A DNA stretch of 64,000 bases from Paraburkholderia flagellata (GTDB lineage: Bacteria; Pseudomonadota; Gammaproteobacteria; Burkholderiales; Burkholderiaceae), in assembly GCF_021390645.1 (NCBI RefSeq), contig NZ_JAJEJT010000005.1, forward strand, positions 1 through 64,000, in the 5' to 3' direction. Each line of letters starts with the position of its first letter. Positions within the stretch are counted from its first letter, which is position 1. Positions 20,500-40,544 of the stretch are shown here, one piece after another. A program made the translations under genes and the position numbers. A model generated the notes under the pieces. The model did not search any database and was not told where the DNA came from. It worked only from the letters and a program-made list of their open reading frames with translations.

Positions 20500-21474
20500 T
20501 CACCCGTCGAGTTCGTGCAGGAAGGAGAGTAGCAACCGGTTCACTTCGCTGGCGCGCTCGCGCTGCAGCCAATGGCCCGCGCCTTCGAGCACGTGAGCAC
20601 CGCGCAACCCCGGCAGCACTTGCGGCAACGCTGCGATGCGCTGCTGCATGCCTGGAAACCTGAGTACATCGTCGCGTGAGCCACCGATGAAGAGCGAAGG
20701 CTGACGAATCGGGCAACCATACCAGGGGGCGAGCAATTCCGCGCTCCTGCGGATCGCGCGGTACCAGTTCAATCCGCCACGGAAGCCGGTGCGTTGGAAC
20801 TCCCCGACGACATAGTCGAGGTCGTCCTGAAGAAGCCAATCCGGCAAGACGTCGGGGTCCACGGTGGTGTCGAGGAGGCCGGCGCCCGGCGCGAGGACGC
20901 CCGCGACCATGCGGCCCGGGCCGTCGCCCGACATGCTGAACGTGATGCGGCGCAGGGTGGCTGCGACATCGGTCTGAAGCTCCTTCTCAGCCACACCCTC
21001 CTGCTGGAAGTACTGCATGTAGAAGGTCGTCACGCCCTGCCGTTCGAGTGCCGTCAGCAAGTCGAGCTTCGAGGGCGGGACATAGGGCACGCTCAGGCCG
21101 ACGACGGCACGGAAGACGTCGGGCCGCAACAGCGCACTGGTCCAGGCTGCGGGCGCTCCCCAGTCGTGGCCCACGATCACCGCCGAATCGGCACCAAGCA
21201 CCCTGACCAGCTCCACCATGTCGCCCGCGTGGTGCAGCATCGTGTACTGTGCGGGGGCGGCCGGCGCGTCGGTACCCCCGTAGCCGCGCATGTCCGGCGC
21301 CGCGGCGCGGTAGCCCGCGTCCGCGACCGCCGCCATCTGCGCGCGCCAGGATACCCACGACTCTGGAAATCCGTGGCAAAACACCACGAGCGGTCCAGCG
21401 CCCTGCAACGCGACACGCATGCGGATGGCGCCGACCTGCAGCGTTTCGAGCTGCACCTCGCGGGGGGCGCTCAC
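20500..21474 (-). CDS. Alpha/beta hydrolase, epoxide hydrolase type
   Basis: 324-residue alpha/beta hydrolase. HGFPES (34-39) forms the oxyanion loop; Asp104 in VGHDWGAPAAW is the nucleophile expected for epoxide hydrolases and haloalkane dehalogenases; SRDD in the C-terminal third and the His of GAGHWLQRE complete the triad. The GTG start at 21474 overlaps the TGA of the upstream flavoprotein gene (GTGA), indicating translational coupling and a joint pathway, perhaps oxygenation of a double bond followed by hydrolysis. An ester substrate cannot be excluded. Confidence 0.85.
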   Translation of the reverse strand: MSAPREVQLETLQVGAIRMRVALQGAGPLVVFCHGFPESWVSWRAQMAAVADAGYRAAAPDMRGYGGTDAPAAPAQYTMLHHAGDMVELVRVLGADSAVIVGHDWGAPAAWTSALLRPDVFRAVVGLSVPYVPPSKLDLLTALERQGVTTFYMQYFQQEGVAEKELQTDVAATLRRITFSMSGDGPGRMVAGVLAPGAGLLDTTVDPDVLPDWLLQDDLDYVVGEFQRTGFRGGLNWYRAIRRSAELLAPWYGCPIRQPSLFIGGSRDDVLRFPGMQQRIAALPQVLPGLRGAHVLEGAGHWLQRERASEVNRLLLSFLHELDG

Positions 21475-22883
21475 GCTGCCTCCGCTGCGGTGAGAAATCG
21501 AGGAATGCGCTGCGCCGCATCCGAAGCTTTGGCCCCGACGGCCTTGATAAGGTCCTGCACGGCAGTGTCCACCTCTACGCCTTTGAGAACCACAACGTTC
21601 CCGTTGAGGCGGCATTGCCTGAGCCAGGCGTTCAGGTCGGGGTTCTGCTGCCAGCGCGCTGCATTGGCGAGAGTCGGTAGCCACATGCGCAGATAATCGA
21701 TCGGCAGTTCGGGCACGGGCACGGGCATGCACATCGCGTTCTGTTCCTGCAGATTCTCCAGGTGCGCCTCGACCCAGGCGATCACGCTGCCTGAAAAGAC
21801 CGGCTGGCACCAACGGACCATCAGGAGGTTGATCGCTTCATCCTGGAACACCGGCACGCCCGGCGCCGGCTGGATCGCGCAGGCAGTGCAGTCGATGTAC
21901 AGCGTGTCAGGATCGGCGGCGAGTTCACCTTTCTCCAGTACGATGCGCGACGACTCGATCGCGCGCACGCGGCCCAGCCGCACGATCTCACCGACCTTGC
22001 GCAATTGGATCATCTCGCCGCGTGAAACGACTGCGCAGCGGTAGGTCGTGGGTTCGATGGCAGGGTCGATCCGCATCAGCGCGCCGCCCGCTTCGAGCCT
22101 CCGGAACAGGTCGGGGACGTCGCGTGCGTCGCGGATCGCATCAAATTGCACCACGCTGTTCTCGAAAAAGCGCCGCCAGCCGGTCGGGCCGGGCTGCATG
22201 TTGGCACGGTCCATCACCCAGGCGTCGCGCGGCATGATCCAGCGGATGCGCTCGTGCGGGACACCGTTCTCGATCAGCCAGATGCACGCATCCATGCCGG
22301 TCTTGCCGGATCCGACGACGGTATAGCACGCGTAAGGCCGCGCAACCTTCGGCAGCTCGTTGCAGGGAATGCATTGCACACCCGCAGCCAAGCTGTATTT
22401 GGGCGGGTGAGTGGACGGCACCTCGGTTTTCGCAAGCGTGGCATTCACCCATTTGCGCTGCACGCGCACCTCGTGCTCGGCGCCGGTCAGCAGCGAGCGG
22501 AAGCGGTGCGTGCGGCCGTCGCTCGCGAAGTGATCGCATTTCGGGAACCACTGCACACGGCCAGAGGGAATGAAGCGCTGTTTCATCACCTGCTCGAAAT
22601 GCGCGAGCACCTCGGCTCCCGAGGACAGACCAAGCATTCCTTCGTTAAAACCCGTCGTTTCATGCGACCAGTCACTCAGTTCGCGCGATGCCACGCCATA
22701 CCAGGCGGACGGCTGGTGCAGCCGCACGTACGGATAGGTGTCGTTCCAATGGCCACCGGGACGGTGGTGGCGATCCACCATCACGACTCGCGCATCGGGC
22801 GACTCGGTGAGCAACGTGTCGACGAATGCCATGGCAGTAGCGCCCGTCCCTGTCACGAAGTAATCGGACTCGATCGATGCCAT
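21471..22883 (-). CDS. FAD/NAD(P)-dependent oxidoreductase (flavin monooxygenase-like)
   Basis: 470-residue flavoprotein. The N-terminal nucleotide-binding motif is GTGATA (12-17), with Ala replacing the last Gly of GxGxxG, followed by an acidic strand end (VVMVDRHHRPGGHW) like FAD-binding flavin monooxygenases. A second Rossmann motif, VVGSGKTG near 195, would bind NAD(P)H. The DTYPYVRLHQPS segment resembles FMO-like enzymes. It is the first gene of a two-gene operon with the coupled epoxide-hydrolase-type gene. Substrate unknown. Confidence 0.75.
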   Translation of the reverse strand: MASIESDYFVTGTGATAMAFVDTLLTESPDARVVMVDRHHRPGGHWNDTYPYVRLHQPSAWYGVASRELSDWSHETTGFNEGMLGLSSGAEVLAHFEQVMKQRFIPSGRVQWFPKCDHFASDGRTHRFRSLLTGAEHEVRVQRKWVNATLAKTEVPSTHPPKYSLAAGVQCIPCNELPKVARPYACYTVVGSGKTGMDACIWLIENGVPHERIRWIMPRDAWVMDRANMQPGPTGWRRFFENSVVQFDAIRDARDVPDLFRRLEAGGALMRIDPAIEPTTYRCAVVSRGEMIQLRKVGEIVRLGRVRAIESSRIVLEKGELAADPDTLYIDCTACAIQPAPGVPVFQDEAINLLMVRWCQPVFSGSVIAWVEAHLENLQEQNAMCMPVPVPELPIDYLRMWLPTLANAARWQQNPDLNAWLRQCRLNGNVVVLKGVEVDTAVQDLIKAVGAKASDAAQRIPRFLTAAEAA

Positions 22884-24036
22884 GTCACTCTCCTTAGTGG
22901 GAGACTTTGAAGTGGTTTTCAGCGCCGGGGAAAACTGGACCTCCGGCTTCTCGGCCGGTCAACGAGAGAGCGTTTGAATCCTTCAATATCGTGCAACTCA
23001 CGTTCAAAGTAGAATTTCGCCGACGCCTTCGTCAAGGTTACCTAACCATATCTTTTCTCGAGAGAAGCCGCCCCATTACGCGCAGCGATTTTCGAAAATG
23101 GAAAGTCCTTTGGGATGGTTATAACGCCTTATTCGGTCGCCACGGAGTCGGGGTTACATCGTGTCTGTGCGCTACCGCACACACTTTCGATGTGCACGCG
23201 GCCATTCGATGGTCCGGGCCTGGACGCAGGGCTCTCTACTCCGCGTTGCCATATCGGGGTACTCCTTACTGTTTCCCCGTGCAGCGGCGGCCCGAACCCA
23301 TATTCATGAAGGAGACGGTTTGCGGTTCAGGCGAGCGTCGCCTTTGGGAGAAAGCGAACGGGTCGTCTCGACCCTGAGCAGCCACTCATGCCGTCGTGAC
23401 TTCAATGGCTGCTTACGAGGTGCTTCGGACCTCCCGCTGTTCCTCAAGAACAAGCCGGTAGCTATAGTCGACCGAGCCTTGGACGTGGCCCCGGTTCGCG
23501 GGCGTTCCTGGCCTGCTTAGCCGATACCCGGCGCATCAGCGGCCCGCTGTTCTTCGTCTGGCCACTCGACTAGCAGGCGCCGGAAAGCTGGACTAAAAAG
23601 GCCTATCACAACCTGATTTACTTCAACTAGCCCGAAACGGATGGGCACTTCGCGGCGTGGGAAGAGCCGATGATCTTCGCAAAAGAAGTGCGCAACGGCT
23701 TGAGACCTTTGCGTACCTGACGTGTGAAGCGCTCCGACGCGTATGCGGCGGAGCGCTCGTCGACACATGTCGCAATGTCTGATATTCCTCGAAAGAAGGC
23801 CATATTGCCACTTCCGCCCGCTTCTCCAAAGCCTGATGATCAGGCGACCTTCCGTTGCTGGATCCCGAACATGGCGGCAAAAGCGTATTTCTCGACAAAC
23901 CTGCTGCTTGCCTATGTAGCTTGGGCTGCCATTTGGTGCGGCTGCGAATCGGCTTGCGCAACTGAAATAAAACCCCAGCGATTCCTGGCGAAGCGACGGC
24001 GAGAATTGCCCCTCGGAATTATTAGTGAGAACGTAA
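22884..24036. other. 1.15 kb gene-poor stretch
   Basis: Open frames here have no family character. Dispersed repeat S copy 2 lies at 23368-23420. The bases before 24037 are the leader of the DUF6130 gene. Confidence 0.35.
23368..23420 (+). repeat. Dispersed intergenic repeat S, copy 2
   Basis: TCGACCCTGAGCAGCCACTC...CTTCAATGGCTGCTT; aligns with the copies at 46788 and 61855. Confidence 0.45.
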
Positions 24037-32012: not shown

Positions 32013-34118
32013 TCAATCCGTTTGCCTGCCGGAAGCCGGATCGGTAATGAGCCTCGTACTGCGCCGGTATGTGAAATACGCCCAGAGCCAATCCAGCATG
32101 ACCTTCACCCTGTTTGGCCCTCCCGTCAGGAATGCGATATGCGCGGCGCCCCAGAACCACCACGCAGGTGCGCCCCACATCTGGATGGGGCCGATTTCCG
32201 CCACAGCTGCCTGACGCCCAATTGTCGCCAGGCTTCCGAAATGCCGGTATCGAAACGGCGGTGGCGGACGGCGCCCCACAAGCTGCGCATCGATAACTCG
32301 CGCGGCGTATTTGCCTTGCTGCTTTGCGGCAGGGGCCAGCCCCGGGACGGCTGCTCCATTCCAGCCCAGACTTGAGGCGGTATCACCAATTGCATAGACG
32401 CCTTCAAGCGCCGGAACGGAGAGGTCGTCGTTCACCTTGATTCGTCCCGACGCATCCCCTCGCTGGTTTAGCCATCGGGCAACCGGAGACGCCGCCACCC
32501 CGGCAGCCCAGAGGATCGTGCGGGATGCTATTCGATCTTCGCCGAGATCGGCGCCATCCTGGTCTACGCGCAGCACTCTGGTATCGAGATAGACAGTGAC
32601 ACCCAGCTTGCGAAGGGATTGTTCTGCGGCGGCAGAAAGGGAAGGGGGAAAGGTCGGTAGAACGCGCGGCCCTGCATGAACCAGAATGACACGCGATGTT
32701 GATGGGTCGATTGTGCGATATTCCTGGTCCATGCCATGATGCGCCAGTTCCGCGATGGCGCCGGCCAGTTCGATACCCGTTGGCCCTCCACCGACGATGA
32801 CGAAGGTGAGCCACGCAGCGCGGGCTCGTTCGTCGGCGGCCGTTTCCGCTTCCTCAAAGGCCCGCAGCAGACGACTTCTTATCGAGGTTGCGTCCTCTAT
32901 GCTTTTTAGCCCGGGCGCGTACGGCGCCCAGTGATCGTTGCCGAAATAACTGTGACGTGCGCCGGTCGCCAGCACGAGATAGTCGAACTTCACCTTGGCC
33001 GCGCCAACGAGCACTTCGCGGGTCGCGGTGTCGACGCCTGTGACGGTCCCCAGGCGTATCTGGACGTTTCGCTGGCTGCGAAAGAGGCTTCGGATCGGCG
33101 TTGCGATTTCGCCGGGCGACAACGCTGCTGTCGCGATCTGGTAGAGCAGCGGCTGGAACAGATGATGATTCCGCTGATCTATGAGGGTGATCCGGCAGCG
33201 CGAATTGCGTAGACCGCGAACTGCCTCGATTCCACCAAAGCCACCGCCTACCACTACAACCTGTGGATACTGATCCAGCGAGCCTTCGTCCTTCTCAGAA
33301 CCGTCGAGCACAGGGCGCGCGAGCAATTGATCCACAGAGATGACGCCAGGCCCCGTGACTACTAACATCAGCAGCAGAAGAAGCATTGCGAGCCGCTCGT
33401 CCATGGACATGGCGATGCCAGCGAGTGGAACCATGGCGGCATAAATGAACGTCGCTGGTCGTGTCATGCAGCCGAAAGCGATGCAGAATGCGAGGATCGC
33501 GCTGACCGATGAGGGGTATGCGAACAGTGTCGTCAGACTGTGACGAGTGGCGTGGCTGAACAGGGAAGGCGTCAGCGCGGAAGCGAGACTGAGCGATGCC
33601 GCCAGGCCTGCGCGCGATACGAGCAGGAGCACCGGTGAGACATATCGTTCGGCCTGCTCATAGAATTTTTTGATCTGTCGCGCCGGGCCAAGTGGAGCCC
33701 ACGCGAGGCCTCGCCCCAGCATCGCATCGAGCGAGAACGGTCCCGGTCCCAGCACGATGAGCCACGCGAGCAAGACAAGCGTTGCGCCGCCCGGACCGAG
33801 GGCGATTGATCCGTAACCCCCAGCGAGCAGCACAAGCGCTATGGGCCGGGTAAGGAGGCCAGCGCTGAGCAGGAATGGCACGATACCGTGCAGCGCCGCC
33901 TCCACGCTGGACGGAACATGTAATCTGGCGCCGGCTACCCCGCCTTGACTGCTTTGTGCCATCGCCATGATCTGATGCACGAGCACGACCTGTCCGAACC
34001 AGAGCCGAGTTGCAAGAAGAAGCCACGGCATGCAAAGCGCGCGAACTTTGGGAGCGAGGCGGACCAGGTGTTGGAAGGCGTTCCGGAGCATACAGCACCA
34101 TCTTGAGAGAATCATCAT
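32013..34118 (-). CDS. DoxX-DoxX-NDH-2 fusion: membrane type II NADH dehydrogenase-like protein
   Basis: 701-residue fusion. Residues about 28-150 and 160-270 are two DoxX-like four-helix membrane modules, each closing with the DoxX end motif (LGPGPFSLDAMLG at 123-135 and TGPGVISVDQLLA at 255-267). Residues about 284-690 form a type II NADH dehydrogenase: FAD site VVVVGGGFGG (287-296), NAD(P)H site VIVGGGPTGIELAGA (440-454), second FAD contact VYAIGDTAS near 585 and an amphipathic C-terminus. Normal NDH-2 is 400-450 residues and lacks DoxX. The gene follows nrsF by 64 bases on the same strand, so it probably belongs to the bufferin operon. It should pass electrons from NADH to quinone or to a DoxX-linked acceptor. 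Confidence 0.85.
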   Translation of the reverse strand: MMILSRWCCMLRNAFQHLVRLAPKVRALCMPWLLLATRLWFGQVVLVHQIMAMAQSSQGGVAGARLHVPSSVEAALHGIVPFLLSAGLLTRPIALVLLAGGYGSIALGPGGATLVLLAWLIVLGPGPFSLDAMLGRGLAWAPLGPARQIKKFYEQAERYVSPVLLLVSRAGLAASLSLASALTPSLFSHATRHSLTTLFAYPSSVSAILAFCIAFGCMTRPATFIYAAMVPLAGIAMSMDERLAMLLLLLMLVVTGPGVISVDQLLARPVLDGSEKDEGSLDQYPQVVVVGGGFGGIEAVRGLRNSRCRITLIDQRNHHLFQPLLYQIATAALSPGEIATPIRSLFRSQRNVQIRLGTVTGVDTATREVLVGAAKVKFDYLVLATGARHSYFGNDHWAPYAPGLKSIEDATSIRSRLLRAFEEAETAADERARAAWLTFVIVGGGPTGIELAGAIAELAHHGMDQEYRTIDPSTSRVILVHAGPRVLPTFPPSLSAAAEQSLRKLGVTVYLDTRVLRVDQDGADLGEDRIASRTILWAAGVAASPVARWLNQRGDASGRIKVNDDLSVPALEGVYAIGDTASSLGWNGAAVPGLAPAAKQQGKYAARVIDAQLVGRRPPPPFRYRHFGSLATIGRQAAVAEIGPIQMWGAPAWWFWGAAHIAFLTGGPNRVKVMLDWLWAYFTYRRSTRLITDPASGRQTD

Positions 34119-34182
34119 GTCGAATGTCAGCCTCTGACACCGCTAGCTGGCGAAAGCGCGATGCCCCGCGTCGACGCGAATT

Positions 34183-34824
34183 TCACCAGCGCAGACAGTG
34201 CGGTGCGATTGCCGCGCCAATGGCCGTCGTGATGACGATCGCCAGCACGTACCACACACCCCAGAACGGCGCCGCCATCTCCGAGCAATACAGCGTGTAG
34301 ACGAGCCATCCCTGCGCGCCGGCCAGGAGACCCGCACCCGCGCCGGCCAGCGCGAGGCGCGTTGGCGCGAGCTGCTTCATCGCGCGCAACACTGCAATGA
34401 GCGAGGGCAGCGAGAGCAGCACGACACTCGCCGTCGTCGTGCGCCACGTCGTGCCAAGCACCAGTTGCAGCCGGTAGCCTGGCGGCGTCGCCAGCAGGAT
34501 GCTGCCCGCGGCGATGAGCATCGTGGCGATGGGCAGCGCCACCGCGAACCAGGCGAGCCTGAGCCGCGCACCGGGGCGGCCAAGCCGCTCCGTGAGCTTC
34601 ATGGCCGCGGCGATGATCGCGAGTGGGAATGCGAGGCGCACCCAGAACATCGCCGTGAGGATCAGCTGGGGCATGTCGCTGCGTACGCCGTACAGCGCGA
34701 CCAGCAGGACCGTGCTACCTGCAAGGCCTCGCAGCAGCGCGCGATCGAGCAGCCTCGGGACGGCGTCGCGCTCGATGTGCGACCCGTTGCTCGCGAGCCG
34801 CGCGACCAGATCTCGCGTTTTCAT
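34183..34824 (-). CDS. nrsF: NrsF (DUF1109) six-helix anti-sigma factor
   Basis: 213-residue integral membrane protein of the NrsF/DUF1109 family, which holds SigF-type ECF sigma factors at the membrane and releases them under metal stress. Six helices are visible. Family motifs include MKTRDLVARLA at the start, RAMKQLAPTRLALAGAGAGLLAGAQG, YTLYCSEMAAPFWGVWYVL and the terminal PHCLRW. In NrsF of Caulobacter two Cys are required for sensing. The one in LYC-E is present; the earlier one, expected in the WR-x-C segment, appears to be Thr (TTWRTTTASV). The ATG overlaps the stop of doxX by four bases (ATGA). No SigF gene lies beside it, which is unusual. Confidence 0.85.
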   Translation of the reverse strand: MKTRDLVARLASNGSHIERDAVPRLLDRALLRGLAGSTVLLVALYGVRSDMPQLILTAMFWVRLAFPLAIIAAAMKLTERLGRPGARLRLAWFAVALPIATMLIAAGSILLATPPGYRLQLVLGTTWRTTTASVVLLSLPSLIAVLRAMKQLAPTRLALAGAGAGLLAGAQGWLVYTLYCSEMAAPFWGVWYVLAIVITTAIGAAIAPHCLRW

Positions 34825-35324
34825 GACCGGTACGCGCGGTCTCCGAGCAGGTAGTCGATCGAAATGACGCCCGGGCCCCACGCAGCGATGCCGAGCGCCA
34901 TGGCCGCCCACGTGAGGTGGATCGGCCAGCCGTCCGGCACCGTTAGCTCAATGATGCAGGTCATCAGCAGCAATCCGGCGGCGGCGAAGCGTGTGCCGAA
35001 TCCAAGCGCAAGCAGTACCGGGAACGTGACCTCGCCGCACGCGGAAAGGAACGCGAAGATGGCGGGCGCCGGAAACGGATACGGACCTCCGGGCAGATGG
35101 AGCTTGAATTCGTCGGTGAAGAGATCGATGGCGGTGTCGTTGAGTTGCAGGAATCCGTGCCACTTGAGGATGCCCGATTTCCAGAACGGCACGGCCAGCG
35201 CGAAGCGCAGCACCAACTGCACGAACGATGGTTGTGCAAGACGTTCGATGAAGCGCCGGGCGCATATGATCGCGTGCGCGACATTGCCCGCAAAAGACGG
35301 TCTCGAGTCTTGTGGAGTTTGCAT
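34821..35324 (-). CDS. DoxX family membrane protein of the bufferin operon
   Basis: 167-residue four-helix DoxX protein. Segments are VLRFALAVPFWKSGILKWHGF, a loop with FTDEFKLHLPGGPYPFPAP, the helix FAFLSACGEVTFPVLLALGF and the C-terminal WGPGVISIDYLLG motif. DoxX proteins accompany many bufferin (BUF) operons and probably take part in redox or maturation steps at the membrane. It follows bufC by 5 bases and overlaps nrsF by 4 bases. The C-terminal motif closely resembles that of the second DoxX module in the downstream fusion. Confidence 0.88.
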   Translation of the reverse strand: MQTPQDSRPSFAGNVAHAIICARRFIERLAQPSFVQLVLRFALAVPFWKSGILKWHGFLQLNDTAIDLFTDEFKLHLPGGPYPFPAPAIFAFLSACGEVTFPVLLALGFGTRFAAAGLLLMTCIIELTVPDGWPIHLTWAAMALGIAAWGPGVISIDYLLGDRAYRS

Positions 35325-35329
35325 GGTGA

Positions 35330-36109
35330 TTACGCTCCCAGTTGAACGGTGGCGAACACGCCGGCCGAAATCATCGCAGCCAGGCTGGCCGCCAGGTCGA
35401 AGGTGTCGTTCTCTTCGAAGGCTGTCTGCGCGGCGGCGCCGAGCGGCATGCCCTCGATGAGCGCGAGGAGAAACGCCGCGCCGCCCGCGGGCAGGCGCGA
35501 GACAATCACGTCGTATTCGGGCCGTGTGACGAGTGCGTCTTCTGCATCGTTCGAACACAACGGGGTGACGGGGCCGGGCGTTCGGTTCATCGCGAAGATC
35601 GCGACCGCCGGGTAGCGCGAGCGCACGATGCGCGCGGCCGGGTGGGGGACAAAGCGCATCTGCGCGAGTGAACCCGGATCGATGCCCGCGAATGCCTCGG
35701 CCGCGAGCGGTGCGGCATCCTCGGCGTGATAGGCGTCGAGCCAGGCGCGCTCGACGCGCGCCGTATCTGCAAGCCAGGGCATGTCGCGCGCGTACTCCCA
35801 GGTTTCGATAAACGACGGAAAGTCGCGTCCGTAATCGAACAGGAGCGGCGAAACCGGCGGCGTGGCACGCACGTGAAAGCGGGCCATCGCGCGGAAGAAC
35901 TCGACGCCCGTGATGCGCTGCACAGCGGGATAAATTGCGGCGAGCGCCTCGATGAGGCTGACTGTGACATTGTTGCGATAGACGTTGTAACGCCTGACGA
36001 CGCCCTTGCCATGCGAAGCCACGACGCCTTCTGGCGTGGCGAGTCCGGGGTTCGTCAGTCCAGGCGCGAAGGCCGTCGCGTAGTCGAGCGTGCGCTGTTC
36101 AGGCTTCAT
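35330..36109 (-). CDS. bufC: BufC (DUF2063): partner of the MNIO enzyme
   Basis: 259-residue DUF2063 protein. The N-terminal half carries the family pattern [20 protein letters not shown], then [20 protein letters not shown] and [13 protein letters not shown]. BufC-type proteins bind the precursor and assist the DUF692 enzyme, as MbnC does with MbnB in methanobactin synthesis. The ATG at 36109 lies 11 bases inside the end of bufB, so translation is coupled. Earlier in-frame ATGs would enter the bufB tail without family homology. All parts look intact. Confidence 0.88.
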
Positions 36110-37046
36110 GGCCGGCGCGCTCCGAGTGAGATACATCGGACTCCGATACATTGCTGGGAGCATGCTCAGACACGATCCGGTGGGCCATCACCGCCTGCGC
36201 GCGCAGCTCGGCCCACGCCGGCAACTGGCTATCCCATTCGATCAGCGTCGGTATCGGCCCGGTGCGCGCGATCAACTCGCGGTAGAGCGCCCACACGACA
36301 TCGGCGACGGCGCGGTCGTGGCTGTCGATGAGGAGCGGCGCGCTCTCGTCGTCGTGCTGTTCGCTGTGGCCGGCCAGGTGAATCTCGCCGACGTATTCAA
36401 GAGGAAAGTCCGCAAGATACGCACGTGCCGTGTAACCTTGATTGGTCGCCGAAACGTAGACATTGTTGACGTCGAGCAGCAGCCCGCAGCCCGTGCGCTG
36501 CGCGACCGTACGGATGAATTCCGTCTCGCTCATCGTCGATGACGCGAACGCCACATACGTCGATGGATTTTCGAGCAGCATCGGACGCCGAATGGCTTCC
36601 TGAATTTGATCGATGTGTTCGCAGACCTTGTCAAGCGTCGCCTTCGTGTAGGGCAGCGGCAACAGATCGTTGAAGAAGGTGCCGTCGTGCGAGGACCATG
36701 CGAGATGTTCAGAGACGAGCGCGGGTTCGTAGCGCGTGACCAATTCGCAAAAGCGCGCAAGGTGGCTGGCGTCGAGTTCATCCGGTCCGCCGATCGACAT
36801 GCACACACCATGCAGCGAGACCGGATAGCGTTCGCGGATCGCGCGCAAGGCGCGGTGCGGCGGGCCGCCCGCGCCCATATAGTTCTCCGCGTGTACCTCG
36901 AAGAAGCCGTCCTGCAGGCCGTCTTCGAAAATTGCAGCGAGATGTTCGTGCTTGAAACTCGTGCCAGCGAGGCCGGCTGCGCCGGGCGCTGCGCAACGAG
37001 GACGGCTGGACGCATGGATCGCCGCCAATCGGGAGAAAGCAAGCAT
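36099..37046 (-). CDS. bufB: BufB (DUF692/MNIO): peptide-modifying iron oxidase
   Basis: 315-residue multinuclear non-heme iron-dependent oxidative enzyme (DUF692, TIM barrel). Conserved metal-site segments appear in order: SFKHEH (30-35), [11 protein letters not shown] (48-58), [10 protein letters not shown] (78-87), VSEHLAW (111-117), LLENPSTY (157-164), [10 protein letters not shown] (190-199), GEIHLAGH (220-227) and LIEWDS (268-273). MNIOs of bufferin systems convert Cys of the BufA peptide into thiooxazole groups that bind copper. The gene lies 29 bases after bufA1 and overlaps bufC. The start at 37046 has a GAGG box. The C-terminal tail (about 300-315) is Ser/His-rich. Confidence 0.92.
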
Positions 37047-37075: not shown

Positions 37076-37387
37076 TCAGGACTTGATCGGCGTGAGCGAG
37101 CCGTGGCCGCCGCCCGGCACGACGATGCTCGCGCAGGTGCCGCCCTGGACGAACTTCCACGAGTTGCCCTGGAAGTCGACCGTCGACGTACCCTGACAGG
37201 TGGTGCCCGGACCGGCGGCACAGTCGTTTTGCCCCTTCAGCGCGACGCCAAAGCACTTTTCCTTGTGGGCAGCGACGGCGGCGCTCACTTCTTCCTTTGT
37301 GAGCGGCGCAGCATGAGCGACCGAAGCGAGCAGGCTTGCAACGGCGCCTGCCAGCAGGGCGGAACTAACAGTGGTCTTAGTGGACAT
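37076..37387 (-). CDS. bufA1: BufA1 (DUF2282) bufferin precursor peptide
   Basis: 103-residue precursor. A signal peptide ([20 protein letters not shown] to AHA, about 27 residues) directs the product to the periplasm. The core has four Cys in DUF2282 positions: Cys45 (EKCFGVAL), Cys56 ([10 protein letters not shown]), Cys64 (TTCQGTS) and Cys85 (QGGTCASI). In characterised bufferins the central Cys are oxidised by BufB/BufC to thiooxazoles that sequester copper. It is the first gene of the operon and has a SigF-type promoter at 37442-37468, 55 bases upstream of the ATG at 37387. Confidence 0.92.
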
Positions 37388-37441: not shown

Positions 37442-37468
37442 TTCGCCGGACGCCTGGCGCCGGTTACA
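37442..37468 (-). promoter_or_regulatory. SigF-type ECF promoter of the bufferin operon
   Basis: Read on the minus strand: TGTAACC (37468-37462), 16 bases, CGAA (37445-37442). This matches exactly GTAACC-N16-CGAA, described for SigF of Caulobacter. It lies 55 bases before the bufA1 start. Confidence 0.8.
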
Positions 37469-37574: not shown

Positions 37575-37601
37575 TGTAACCGGCACGTGTAGCCGAACGA
37601 A
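37575..37601 (+). promoter_or_regulatory. Second SigF-type ECF promoter, pointing rightward
   Basis: TGTAACC (37575-37581), 16 bases, CGAA (37598-37601) on the plus strand: again an exact match. No intact plus-strand gene follows; about 335 bases downstream the group II intron begins. Confidence 0.65.
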
Positions 37602-37936: not shown

Positions 37937-39895
37937 GTGCGCCGTGCAAAGGCGGCGCTTTTCCAGTGGGTGAAAGCCCCACCCGGCAACCGCTCCAGCC
38001 GGAAGCAACCGGAGCAATCGTGGAGGTAACGAAGCGGTTGAAGCCTCCGGTGAAGCATGTCACGAAATACGGTGACAGCGCGAGTGTGCAGGCCGTAACG
38101 CGAGTGAACGCTGAGCAAGCCTCGAAAAAGTCGATGCGCAGGCCGACCTGACTGCCATATCGGGGAAGGCTGACACGGGTGGGTGAACGAGCAGGCAGGA
38201 CACCCAGTCGCTGCGCCGGGGTAGTGGCGACAGCATGCACACAAGGGAAGCGCACGCAACACGGGAAGCCCCTTGGCGTGGTCAGGGATGACCAACCGGA
38301 CGCCCGTGAGGGACAGGCCGGGCACCCTGGGGTGACGGAGAGGCCCGTATTACCGTTGAAGCCGGTGTAATGCGGGTGGAGGGAAGGGGCCTCAGTTCAA
38401 GACAGACGCAATACGTAGTGAGGACGTGGAGATTGGGCAACCTATCAACTCCGATTCGTGTTCAGAAGCTGCAGATGGCGTTACACGCGAAAGCGAAGGC
38501 AGAAGCCGGGTATCGCTTTTACGCGCTGTACGACAAGATCTATCGCGAGGATGTGCTGGCGCATGCGTACGCCCAGTGCCGCTCTAACAAGGGCGCGCCG
38601 GGTGTCGATCGGCAGGACTTCGCGGAGGTTGAAGCGTATGGGGTGCAGAAGTGGCTCGGCGAACTGGCGCTTGCGCTCAGGCAGGAGACTTACCGGCCGG
38701 ACCCTATCAGAAGAGTGTTTATCCCGAAGGCCAATGGCAAGCTGAGGCCCTTGGGCATCTCGACCCTGCGTGATCGGGTGTGCATGACAGCAGCGATGCT
38801 GGTGCTCGAACCGATCTTCGAAGCTGACCTTCCACCAGAGCAATACGCTTACCGCCCGGGGCGAAATGCCCAGCAGGCGGTGGTCGAGGTGGATGAGCGG
38901 TTGCACCGTGGACAAACGGACGTTGTTGATGCCGACCTGGCGGACTACTTCGGAAGTATTCCCCACGCCGAACTGATGCTGTCGCTCGCGCGACGCATCG
39001 TTGACCGGCGTGTGCTGCATCTGATCAGGATGTGGCTGGAATGCCCCGTGGAAGAAACCGATGACCGTGGCCGGCAGAAACGTACGACGGAGGCCCGGGA
39101 CAGCCGGCGCGGCATTCCGCAAGGTTCTCCCATCTCACCCCTGTTGGCGAATGTTTACATGCGCCGGTTTGTGTTGGCATGGAAGAAACTCGGACTTCAG
39201 CGCAGTCTTGGCAGCCGCATTGTGACTTACGCGGATGATCTTGTGATCCTGTGCAAGCGGGGCAAGGCGGAAGAAGCCTTGGTGCGAATGCGCGAGATCA
39301 TGAGCAAACTGAAGCTGACGGTCAACGAGGAGAAGACGCAAATCTGCAAGGTGCCGGAAGGCGAATTCGACTTCCTGGGTTACACGTTTGGGCGGATGTA
39401 CTCTGCAGTGACTGGCCAGGCCCGTATGGGCATGCGTCCGTCGAAGAAGAGTATCCGGCGCATGGTCGAGAAGATTCACGCGCTGACCGCTTCGACGATG
39501 ACGTGGCTCGATACCACGGAGTTGGTGGGCAAGTTGAACCGCACGCTGCGCGGCTGGGCGAACTACTTCAAGGTAGGGACGGTCAGTCGCGCGTATCGGG
39601 CGCTTGACAGCTACACTTCCACGCGGTTGCGCCGGTGGTTACGTATCAAGCACAAGGTCAGACGTCGTAGGGGCGGGACGTATCCACCCTCGCACCTCTA
39701 CGGGCACTTTGGTCTCGTTCGTCTCCAAGGGCCTTGGTAGTGACTTGCCGTGTACGAAGGCGTGATGTCTTGTCCGAGAGCCGGATGCGGGAGATCTGCA
39801 TGTCCGGTTCGATGAGCGGGTTGTGGAAACGGGGTTAAGGCAAGGATATTCGGGCACCGCCAGACGAAAGGGGCGGCAACAGACAAACCGAACCT
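37937..39895 (+). mobile_element. Group II intron with reverse transcriptase
   Basis: The 5' end is placed at GTGCG (37937), the GUGYG consensus, followed by about 430 bases of structured leader with many short GC-rich inverted repeats. The intron-encoded protein occupies 38370-39740. Domain V is recognisable at about 39777-39811: GAGCCGGATGCGGGAGATC pairs with GATCTGCATGTCCGGTTC. Domain VI and the 3' end lie within about 39812-39895; the exact end is uncertain. The element sits between the rightward SigF-type promoter and an IS3 relic. Confidence 0.75.
38370..39740 (+). CDS. Group II intron-encoded reverse transcriptase/maturase
   Basis: 456-residue LtrA-like protein. Reverse-transcriptase blocks are visible in order: [22 protein letters not shown] around 112-133, [46 protein letters not shown] and the catalytic [11 protein letters not shown]. 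The maturase (X) domain follows with [21 protein letters not shown]. It ends [14 protein letters not shown] without an HNH endonuclease domain, so it belongs to the classes lacking En, which often target replication forks or terminator-like sites. The ATG at 38370 is the first; homology starts nearer 38475 ([16 protein letters not shown]). Confidence 0.92.
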
Positions 39896-40544
39896 AATGC
39901 TACCGCGCCACAACTCGACTCTACCGACTGTACGCGCTCACCAACTTCGCCGTAAGCCGCCATTCAATGACATTCACCGTCCACCAGCGGCAGCTTTGTG
40001 GTGCGTTGGGTCGGCGGGTGAAACCGGCCATGAGCAGTCGCTTGAGCCTGTGTTTCTGTCGACGTTCTCGCGTCGATCTACATCAGCAAACGGCCATTCG
40101 ATTCGCGAAGGTAACGTCGTTTCATCCCGAGCTTGCTGTTTTCCAGTTCCAGTTTCTTCAGCCGCTGCGCTTCTGAGACGGTTATCCTGTCAAACTTCAT
40201 CTGCCAGTTGCAGCGGGTTCGAAATATCGTGCTTGCGGCCCGGTTTCACATCAGGTTGCGGATGTCTTCGAGCGCCCTCGAACTCGTGTGAATTCAACAT
40301 GTCGATGTAAAACACTAGACGCTGCGCGCGCAGCGCGGCGTATTGAAATTGAAAGCCGCCGGTTACCAATTGCAACGACTGCAACTGAACCTCTCCCTCG
40401 AACCATCCTCTCACCGGAAGCATTCGGCGGGGGACCTCGCATCCGCCGACGCTCGTCATGCACCGCGACTGTCCTGCATGTAGCAAGCTCCATCGACAGT
40501 CGAGCATCGTTCCGCTTTTTAACCACGATTGGAGGAAATGGAAC
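39896..40544. other. Stretch between intron and phosphatase gene with IS3 relic
   Basis: Only the IS3-like relic (40078-40200) is recognised. The final 30 bases hold the TTGGAGGAAA leader of the phosphatase gene. Confidence 0.4.
40078..40200 (-). pseudogene. IS3-family OrfA relic
   Basis: The minus strand from 40200 reads MKFDRITVSEAQRLKKLELE, then NSKLGMKRRYLRESNGRLLM and stop. This matches the leucine-zipper region of IS3-type OrfA proteins (VSEAQRLKxLExENxKLK). The N-terminal HTH and the whole OrfB are missing. Confidence 0.6.

Follow-up and report, generated by a model that had tools for sequence, protein, structure and literature searches.

In mycobacteria, the DoxX protein acts with redox enzymes in a membrane oxidoreductase complex, where it is partnered by a superoxide dismutase and by a protein resembling thiosulfate sulfurtransferases. 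DoxX joined to a redox enzyme of another kind was found in Paraburkholderia flagellata, in the stretch of 64,000 nucleotides analysed here (assembly GCF_021390645.1, contig NZ_JAJEJT010000005.1, positions 1 to 64,000, hereafter the window). One gene of the window (32013..34118, minus strand) encodes two DoxX modules followed by a type II NADH dehydrogenase (NDH-2) and stands last in a bufferin operon. According to the bufferin survey, the core of such clusters consists of the bufferin, MNIO, DUF2063 and DoxX genes, other conserved genes being extremely rare; a few clusters of the EGKCG type carry Oxidored_molybd or ferric reductase genes, seen as a sign of redox functions, and words beginning with NADH or oxidoreductase are absent from the main text of the survey (PMC12452194). 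DoxX was named a core gene of bufferin clusters, without an established role there (PMC12452194, PMC12668002, PMC10304878), and for the DoxX-like protein GigT electron transfer between periplasmic copper and quinone was proposed (PMC10304878). The DoxX, GigT and HvfX proteins of bufferin (captophorin) clusters share with the fusion the same module with its GPG..S.D..L end, whereas the fusion has two copies of it and joins DoxX to a flavoenzyme.

The closest described regulatory system is the sigma-F/NrsF regulon of Caulobacter, which includes bufferin operons and the YedY-like gene CC2748 and in which sigma-F binds the sequence GTAACC-N16-CGAA (PMC3511200). It resembles the system studied here in the promoter sequence and the bufferin genes and, in the genome to which the window belongs (G000), in an Oxidored_molyb gene divergent from an extracytoplasmic function (ECF) sigma gene, like the YedY-type gene; two divergent sigma-F-type sites lie in G000 between the ECF sigma gene and a gene pair for cytochrome b561 and Oxidored_molyb. 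No NDH-2 was seen in the regulon gene table of that paper (PMC3511200), while Burkholderiaceae add the fusion and, in some cases, a thioredoxin-CcdA pair. DoxX and NDH-2 were not found together in the literature searched, which excluded subscription papers, and this agrees with the initial annotation, made from the sequence alone, which knew of no description of the fusion with bufferins. It is the combination that appears to be novel; the protein families and the type of regulon are already known.

The open reading frame and the profile searches agree with the initial annotation in that the 701-residue protein consists of two DoxX-like modules and a full NDH-2. The C-terminal 410 residues matched Pyr_redox_2 (PF07992) over its cut-off (170.7 bits) and the C-terminal membrane domain NDH2_C (PF22366) with 32.0 bits against a cut-off of 27.7, and the two domains together span residues 286-694 (32037..33263, minus strand). 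The 13 best rows among solved structures were all NDH-2s, with 9mqy as the best and 4nwz also present. In an alignment of 36 relatives, chosen from the 120 listed, both GxGxxG motifs (VVVGGGFGG and VIVGGGPTG) are invariant, as are E450 and D579, matched by motif to the conserved catalytic Glu and the FAD Asp of NDH-2; in the S. aureus enzyme E172 lies near the nicotinamide and D302 at the FAD (PMC5299459). The quinone-site motif is APxAxQ (residues 595-600, APAAKQ; 32319..32336, minus strand), a variant of AQxAxQ that occurs in 10% of NDH-2s (PMC5299459). The fusion thus shares with known NDH-2s (C. thermarum 4nwz, S. aureus 5na1, yeast Ndi1 4g6g and 9mqy) the two dinucleotide-binding domains, the catalytic Glu/Asp, the quinone-site motif in its variant form and the C-terminal membrane domain; unlike them, it has two DoxX modules in front and Q or H in place of an acidic residue. 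As judged from these features, the protein is most likely an integral-membrane NAD(P)H:quinone oxidoreductase, its activity being predicted. The chain has six Cys, of which only C308 is invariant, and a thioredoxin-reductase-like dithiol mechanism was ruled out on the ground of this single invariant Cys.

The best 120 matches listed in the protein search show 51-100% identity, and all but six of them cover at least 93% of the query. Their named sources are Paraburkholderia, Burkholderia, Trinickia, Pararobbsia, Caballeronia and metagenome-assembled genomes (MAGs) of Acetobacteraceae and Alphaproteobacteria. Several carry names that combine NADH dehydrogenase and DoxX, and the fusion is an existing, uncharacterised kind of protein. 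Because several relatives have 692 residues and begin at the Met of MLRNAF, 27 nt inside the 701-residue start, the 692-residue form with its ATG at 34091 is likelier than the 701-residue form.

DoxX module 1 occupies residues 26-152 (33663..34043, minus strand) and contains GPGPFSLDAML, and module 2 occupies residues 156-275 (33294..33653, minus strand) and contains GPGVISVDQLL; the GPG-S-D-L end attributed earlier to each module was recovered as GPG..S.D..L in both and in the stand-alone DoxX. The Pfam DoxX model (PF07681) gave no match with the window protein. Among ten relatives scanned it passed the cut-off on module 1 in eight, all of them outside Burkholderiaceae, fell just short in P0020 (23.5 against 23.6 bits) and gave no match in P0114. 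As Pfam missed the DoxX identity in the window protein, it was settled through these relatives and through a comparison of the module profiles with 19 stand-alone DoxX rows taken from the fetched loci. Each module matched the stand-alone DoxX with a probability of 96.2 (E 2.4e-9 over 64 columns and 2.7e-9 over 55 columns, respectively), and module 1 matched module 2 with a probability of 97.4 over 111 columns, against at most 1.1 for the controls (reversed, NrsF, BufC and FAD-domain profiles). The initial annotation had singled out module 2 as resembling the stand-alone DoxX; the two modules resemble it equally well. Among charged, aromatic and polar residues, those invariant in the modules are R38, W40, Q43, M53, R91, W119, D131, R169 and D263. 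Before residue 270, hydropathy indicated seven segments in the window protein and six in the family average, against eight expected for two four-helix bundles. A sequence search for a solved DoxX structure found none and returned a single match at chance level. The idea that DoxX carries a metal or haem was found unsupported, as the modules hold no invariant Cys or His.

The acidic residue to which selectivity for NADH is ascribed, and which was proposed to exclude NADPH in Ndi1 (E272; PMC11670749), is replaced by His481 in the window protein (codon 32676..32678, minus strand). This position, in 64 fused rows, is occupied by Q (52) or H (12) and never by an acidic residue, while 71 of the 74 unfused rows have E and three, L049 among them, have Q; the fused rows are not independent, as the window protein and P0001 are the same protein and the domains of L130 and P0002 are identical. 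At the corresponding place 4nwz has E and 9mqy has D, and Ndi1 was outside the alignment. Since the acidic residue is lost in all fused rows, the fused NDH-2 domain is predicted to prefer NADPH or to be relaxed in its use of coenzyme. In a tree built from 138 NDH-2 domains (quick search, no bootstrap, midpoint root), the fused rows form one group with a Shimodaira-Hasegawa-like approximate likelihood ratio test value (SH-aLRT) of 98, and the only row inside it that was counted as unfused is L049, which begins at a contig edge. The unfused NDH-2 of G398 branches beside the fused group with a support of 93, under the tool's mark of 95.

A sequence of the sigma-F type matching that of Caulobacter (GTAACC-N16-CGAA) lies 54 bp before bufA1, the first gene of the window operon (37442..37467, minus strand), and a second, divergent one is located at 37576..37601 (plus strand). 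We compared 16 fusion loci of Burkholderiaceae, namely 11 of the family sample, G007, G001, G004 and G026 (first relatives search) and Burkholderia sp. H160. At 15 of them a sigma-F-type sequence heads the putative unit, in three different gene orders. Seven loci, including the window, have bufA-bufB-bufC-doxX-(nrsF)-fusion on one strand with the motif before bufA, and nrsF is missing in G270. At six loci (G253, G014, G007, G001, G004 and H160) the fusion stands head to head with bufA and is preceded by a separate motif, 72-189 bp from the start that the script chose for it. At the remaining two (G361 and G356) the motif is followed by a thioredoxin gene, a gene for a DsbD_TM/CcdA-type protein and the fusion, the pair lying directly upstream of the fusion in the same unit. 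The 341 kb of these 16 loci contain 54 strict sites, against a mean of 0.75 and a maximum of 8 in 299 scrambled versions. Elsewhere, one strict site was found in the 200 kb of 12 other fusion loci and one in the 1,252 kb of 71 unfused NDH-2 loci (counting the contig-edge row L049), and in none of these 71 did a site lie near the NDH-2 start. Co-regulation of the fusion by a promoter of the sigma-F type is therefore predicted. The comparison supports a tie of the fusion to a putative sigma-F/NrsF regulon, kept in three gene orders, that is steadier than its tie to any one operon. Of the earlier proposal that the fusion belongs to the bufferin operon, the bufferin and metal setting holds within Burkholderiaceae, and the restriction to one operon does not.

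In the window, the order on the minus strand is bufA1-bufB-bufC-doxX-nrsF-fusion. The gene bufA1 (37076..37387) encodes a DUF2282 bufferin-1 precursor (75.8 bits) with four Cys and, by eye, a signal-like N-terminus. It is followed by bufB, the MNIO bufferin maturase (36099..37046; NF050167 MNIO_BufB, 377.4 bits, cut-off 310), bufC, the DUF2063 partner (35330..36109; 77.9 bits), the stand-alone doxX (34821..35324; PF07681, 58.0 bits; HvfX family 48 bits, below the cut-off of 80) and nrsF of the anti-sigma-F type (34183..34824; PF06532, 207.2 bits), all on the minus strand. The DUF2282, DUF2063, DoxX and NrsF matches all exceed their Pfam cut-offs, and the NCBIfam models NrsF, HvfX and HvfC matched the operon below theirs. 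The operon contains the parts by which a bufferin-1 operon is defined, i.e., a four-Cys DUF2282 precursor, MNIO, DUF2063 and DoxX. No sigma gene was found beside the window nrsF. The distance of 64 bases between nrsF and the fusion given in the initial annotation is valid for the long start (34119..34182, minus strand) and becomes 91 nt with the short one. A terminator or a separate promoter in this gap would have spoken for separate transcription; the 64 nt were scanned and held no terminator-like, sigma-70-like or sigma-F-like site.

A side observation concerns NrsF itself. Of the 14 NrsF rows for which no adjacent sigma gene was found, 12 (the window protein, 34183-34824, and those of L130, L133, L131, L101, L132, L136, L021, L105, L196, L197 and L198) do not have a Cys that is present in all 11 sigma-linked rows. 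The two exceptions are L083 and L195, and the gene of the latter is, by its coordinates, the sigma-linked gene of L137. The missing position resembles the periplasmic C131 of Caulobacter NrsF (PMC3511200), to which it was likened without an alignment. An orphan NrsF without this Cys may damp the sigma-F regulon without sensing.

A strong match to the DoxX part of the fusion was present in 11 of the 349 Burkholderiaceae genomes, with eight further weak matches (E 1e-5 to 5e-4) left out of the count. DUF2282 was found in 121 genomes, and all 11 fusion genomes are among them. The fusion lies at most 4 kb from a DUF2282 gene in ten of the 11, and at 20.6 kb in G356; fusions are thus not confined to places away from bufferin loci, in keeping with the setting proposed in the initial annotation. 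By chance, such a distance would be expected in under 0.5% of cases per genome, and the computed overall probability of 6e-27 is too small to be taken literally because the genomes are related.

The content of the neighbouring units varies. In G007 and G014 the unit beside the fusion is bufA-doxX without bufB/bufC, and in G253 and G001 only fragments of bufB/bufC are left in it; in all four genomes an intact MNIO gene lies at least 8 kb away. In G004 and H160, the fusion has an intact bufABC next to it, and a further bufA-doxX-nrsF unit close by lacks bufB/bufC. G014 and G001 also carry a thioredoxin and DsbD_TM pair, located near bufferin genes and preceded by a motif of its own. Close relatives of the CcdA-type protein (at least 56% identity) were found in ten of the 40 genomes searched, the genome of the query included. 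They are located in the unit of the fusion itself in G361 and G356, less than 5 kb from DUF2282 in G389, G346, G236, G014 and G253, about 11 kb from bufA in G001, on a contig other than that of DUF2282 in G303, and about 194 kb from the nearest listed DUF2282 place in G108. Three of these relatives of the CcdA/DsbD type (G389:C151, G346:C33 and G236:C1) lie 0.3-1.2 kb from DUF2282 in genomes without a fusion match. As CcdA-type genes occur near DUF2282 in genomes that showed no fusion, the fusion and the thiol carriers appear to have been added independently to one putative regulon.

Outside Burkholderiaceae the fusion is found among other neighbours. In L023 (a Rhodospirillales MAG), bufABC-doxX lies less than 3 kb upstream of the fusion with a chemoreceptor-like gene (by eye) between them, and in L107 bufB/bufC lies about 7 kb away; the other outside loci, three of them short contigs, showed no bufferin genes with the profiles used, which may miss distant ones. 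Two more full fusions were found in the phylum sample of 398 genomes (G726 and G477), both far from the DUF2282 genes of their own genomes. Five of the 12 outside fusions (L098, L022, L024, L107 and L108) adjoin a gene for a large protein and/or an aquaporin, assigned by Pfam as an MGH1-like glycosidase in L098 and an MIP aquaporin in L107 and by eye in the remainder. Outside Burkholderiaceae the fusion may serve another stress setting.

Unfused NDH-2 genes were also found close to bufferin genes. The cluster of G398 runs from bufA through a DUF2063-like gene, doxX, ndh2 and bufB to bufC, with 9 nt between the doxX stop and the ndh2 ATG and 3 nt between the ndh2 stop and the ATG of bufB, whose product passes the curated cut-off with 347.8 bits. 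In G609 an unfused ndh2 lies 1.4 kb upstream of a DUF2282 match with an internal stop codon, followed by bufB, bufC and doxX. Because of the natural fusion, the doxX-ndh2-bufB-bufC order on the neighbouring branch and the shared promoter sequences, we suggest that DoxX may work with the electron flow between NAD(P)H and quinone. The fusion makes the role of DoxX in bufferin clusters testable.

Going one step further, we tentatively propose that the fusion couples NAD(P)H to the redox state of copper and thiols in the periplasm by way of quinone and DoxX, the likeliest of the readings considered, to which we would give somewhat less than an even chance. The cytoplasmic NDH-2 domain would oxidise NAD(P)H, probably NADPH, and the electrons would pass to FAD; quinone would then be reduced at the DoxX modules, and DoxX would draw on the quinone pool to control how far copper and thiols in the periplasm are oxidised or reduced. 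The exported bufferin would thereby be able to bind Cu(I), and its cysteines would be kept in the right state; in Buf1 a disulphide joins the first and the last Cys (PMC12452194), and copper was loaded onto a peptide of the EGKCG type in the presence of ascorbate, hence as Cu(I) (PMC12668002). The fusion would be a channel made from what is elsewhere a doxX-ndh2 gene pair, and in some relatives the same type of promoter would also drive a thioredoxin and a CcdA-type thiol carrier alongside it. If this is true, the sigma-F regulon would be widened from metal binding to membrane redox.

Several points weigh against this proposal. Ubiquinol has little power to reduce disulphides. The DoxX modules lack an invariant Cys or His, and for this reason electron carriage by them cannot be shown. 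The proposal for GigT has the opposite direction, with Cu(I) oxidised into the quinone pool (PMC10304878). The sigma-F genes of Caulobacter are induced by chromium and cadmium, in a manner described as unrelated to oxidative and disulphide stress, and the main text of that paper does not mention copper (PMC3511200). The motif is absent at the fusion of G026, and no strict motif was found at five loci where an unfused NDH-2 lies near bufferins (G398, G609, L083, L097 and L040). Genome-wide it is weakly specific, with 18 sites in G000 against 11 for the reversed pattern, so that a lone site away from such genes means little. Finally, bufferin genes lie within 3 kb of the fusion at only one (L023) of the 12 loci outside Burkholderiaceae, where three short contigs have cut flanks (L022, L024 and L025) and the bufferin profiles, built from the studied loci, may miss distant genes. 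The core activity of the fusion therefore need not concern bufferins, and the same count rules out the fusion as a pure bufferin-operon gene.

The alternative that survives best, though we regard it as unlikely, is a respiratory bypass, in which Fe-S enzymes such as complex I are poisoned by metals, NADH oxidation and respiration are sustained by an NDH-2 free of Fe-S that sigma-F induces, and DoxX is a mere membrane anchor. It is consistent with a complete NDH-2 that has a known quinone-motif variant and no conserved dithiol motif, with a promoter of the metal-stress type, and with the related unfused NDH-2s, of which most showed no bufferin gene nearby (bufferin-type genes within 1.5 kb at three of the 71 loci, L083, L097 and L040, the last with a DUF2063-type gene only). 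This explanation does not account for the choice of DoxX for the fusion, the doxX-ndh2-bufB order in G398, the thioredoxin-CcdA-fusion units or the fact that none of the fused rows keeps the acidic residue.

A more novel reading, which we consider rather doubtful, treats the fusion as a self-contained, NADPH-driven transmembrane reductase with DoxX as a quinone-linked transmembrane redox module. The electrons would run from NADPH to FAD, to a quinone between the two DoxX bundles and on to periplasmic copper or thiols, with neither a haem nor a cysteine relay of the DsbD type. If true, it would be a new type of transmembrane reductase for metal stress and a first physical clue to the role of DoxX in bufferin clusters.

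Reduction of copper by the NDH-2 domain itself, which would turn Cu(II) into Cu(I) and feed Cu(I)-binding bufferins or copper export, appears improbable. The NDH-2 of E. coli was reported to be a Cu(II) reductase, likely important under copper stress (PMC3817396), and the bufferin setting and the sigma-F-type promoter fit such a role. However, the catalytic domain should face the cytoplasm, whereas the bufferin is exported; the modules have no invariant His or Cys, the whole chain has one invariant Cys, and DoxX is left without a role.

The initial annotation had put forward electron supply for the modification of BufA1 by the MNIO enzyme BufB, and the setting of copper and thiol redox is favoured over it. 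The fusion does follow bufABC-doxX on the same strand in the window and six related loci, and the ndh2 gene of G398 directly precedes bufB. However, a strong match to the DoxX part of the fusion is lacking in 110 of the 121 Burkholderiaceae genomes with DUF2282, and at four loci the fusion stands beside a bufA-doxX unit that lacks intact bufB/bufC, even if an intact MNIO gene lies farther away. Moreover, peptides of the EGKCG type were modified in a foreign host, which has its own dehydrogenases, by MNIO and its partner alone (PMC12668002). This supply of electrons is very unlikely. Shared mobility could gather genes on the plasmid-listed records of G014:C3 and G001:C4 and on the 655-kb contig that carries the G000 copy. 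Nevertheless, that the fusion stands where it does by chance, or was carried along with a metal-resistance island, is hardly credible given the sigma-F-type sequence kept in each of the three gene orders and the closeness to DUF2282 in ten of 11 (related) genomes. The two plasmid records are those of Paraburkholderia, NZ_CP155075.1 (1.09 Mb) and NZ_AP023177.1 (0.61 Mb), and correspond in length and coordinates to G014:C3 and G001:C4, respectively.

Further genes were observed near sigma-F-type motifs. In L183, L181 and L180, which belong to the genome of the window, these encode an ECF sigma factor, cytochrome b561 with Oxidored_molyb, a DUF1223 protein and a CxxCxxCC protein. A DUF899 gene is divergent from bufA in L101, and no clear gene takes this place in the window. 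There, a group II intron (Rfam; 37964-39924, plus strand) is inserted behind the divergent motif at 37576-37601 and contains a reverse-transcriptase-like open reading frame (38370-39740, by eye). Tandem motifs at 23016-23041 and 23132-23157 lie upstream of a gene (21474-22883, minus strand) for a 470-residue FAD/NAD-binding-like protein, which has only a weak Rossmann match and is a possible further member of the sigma-F regulon.

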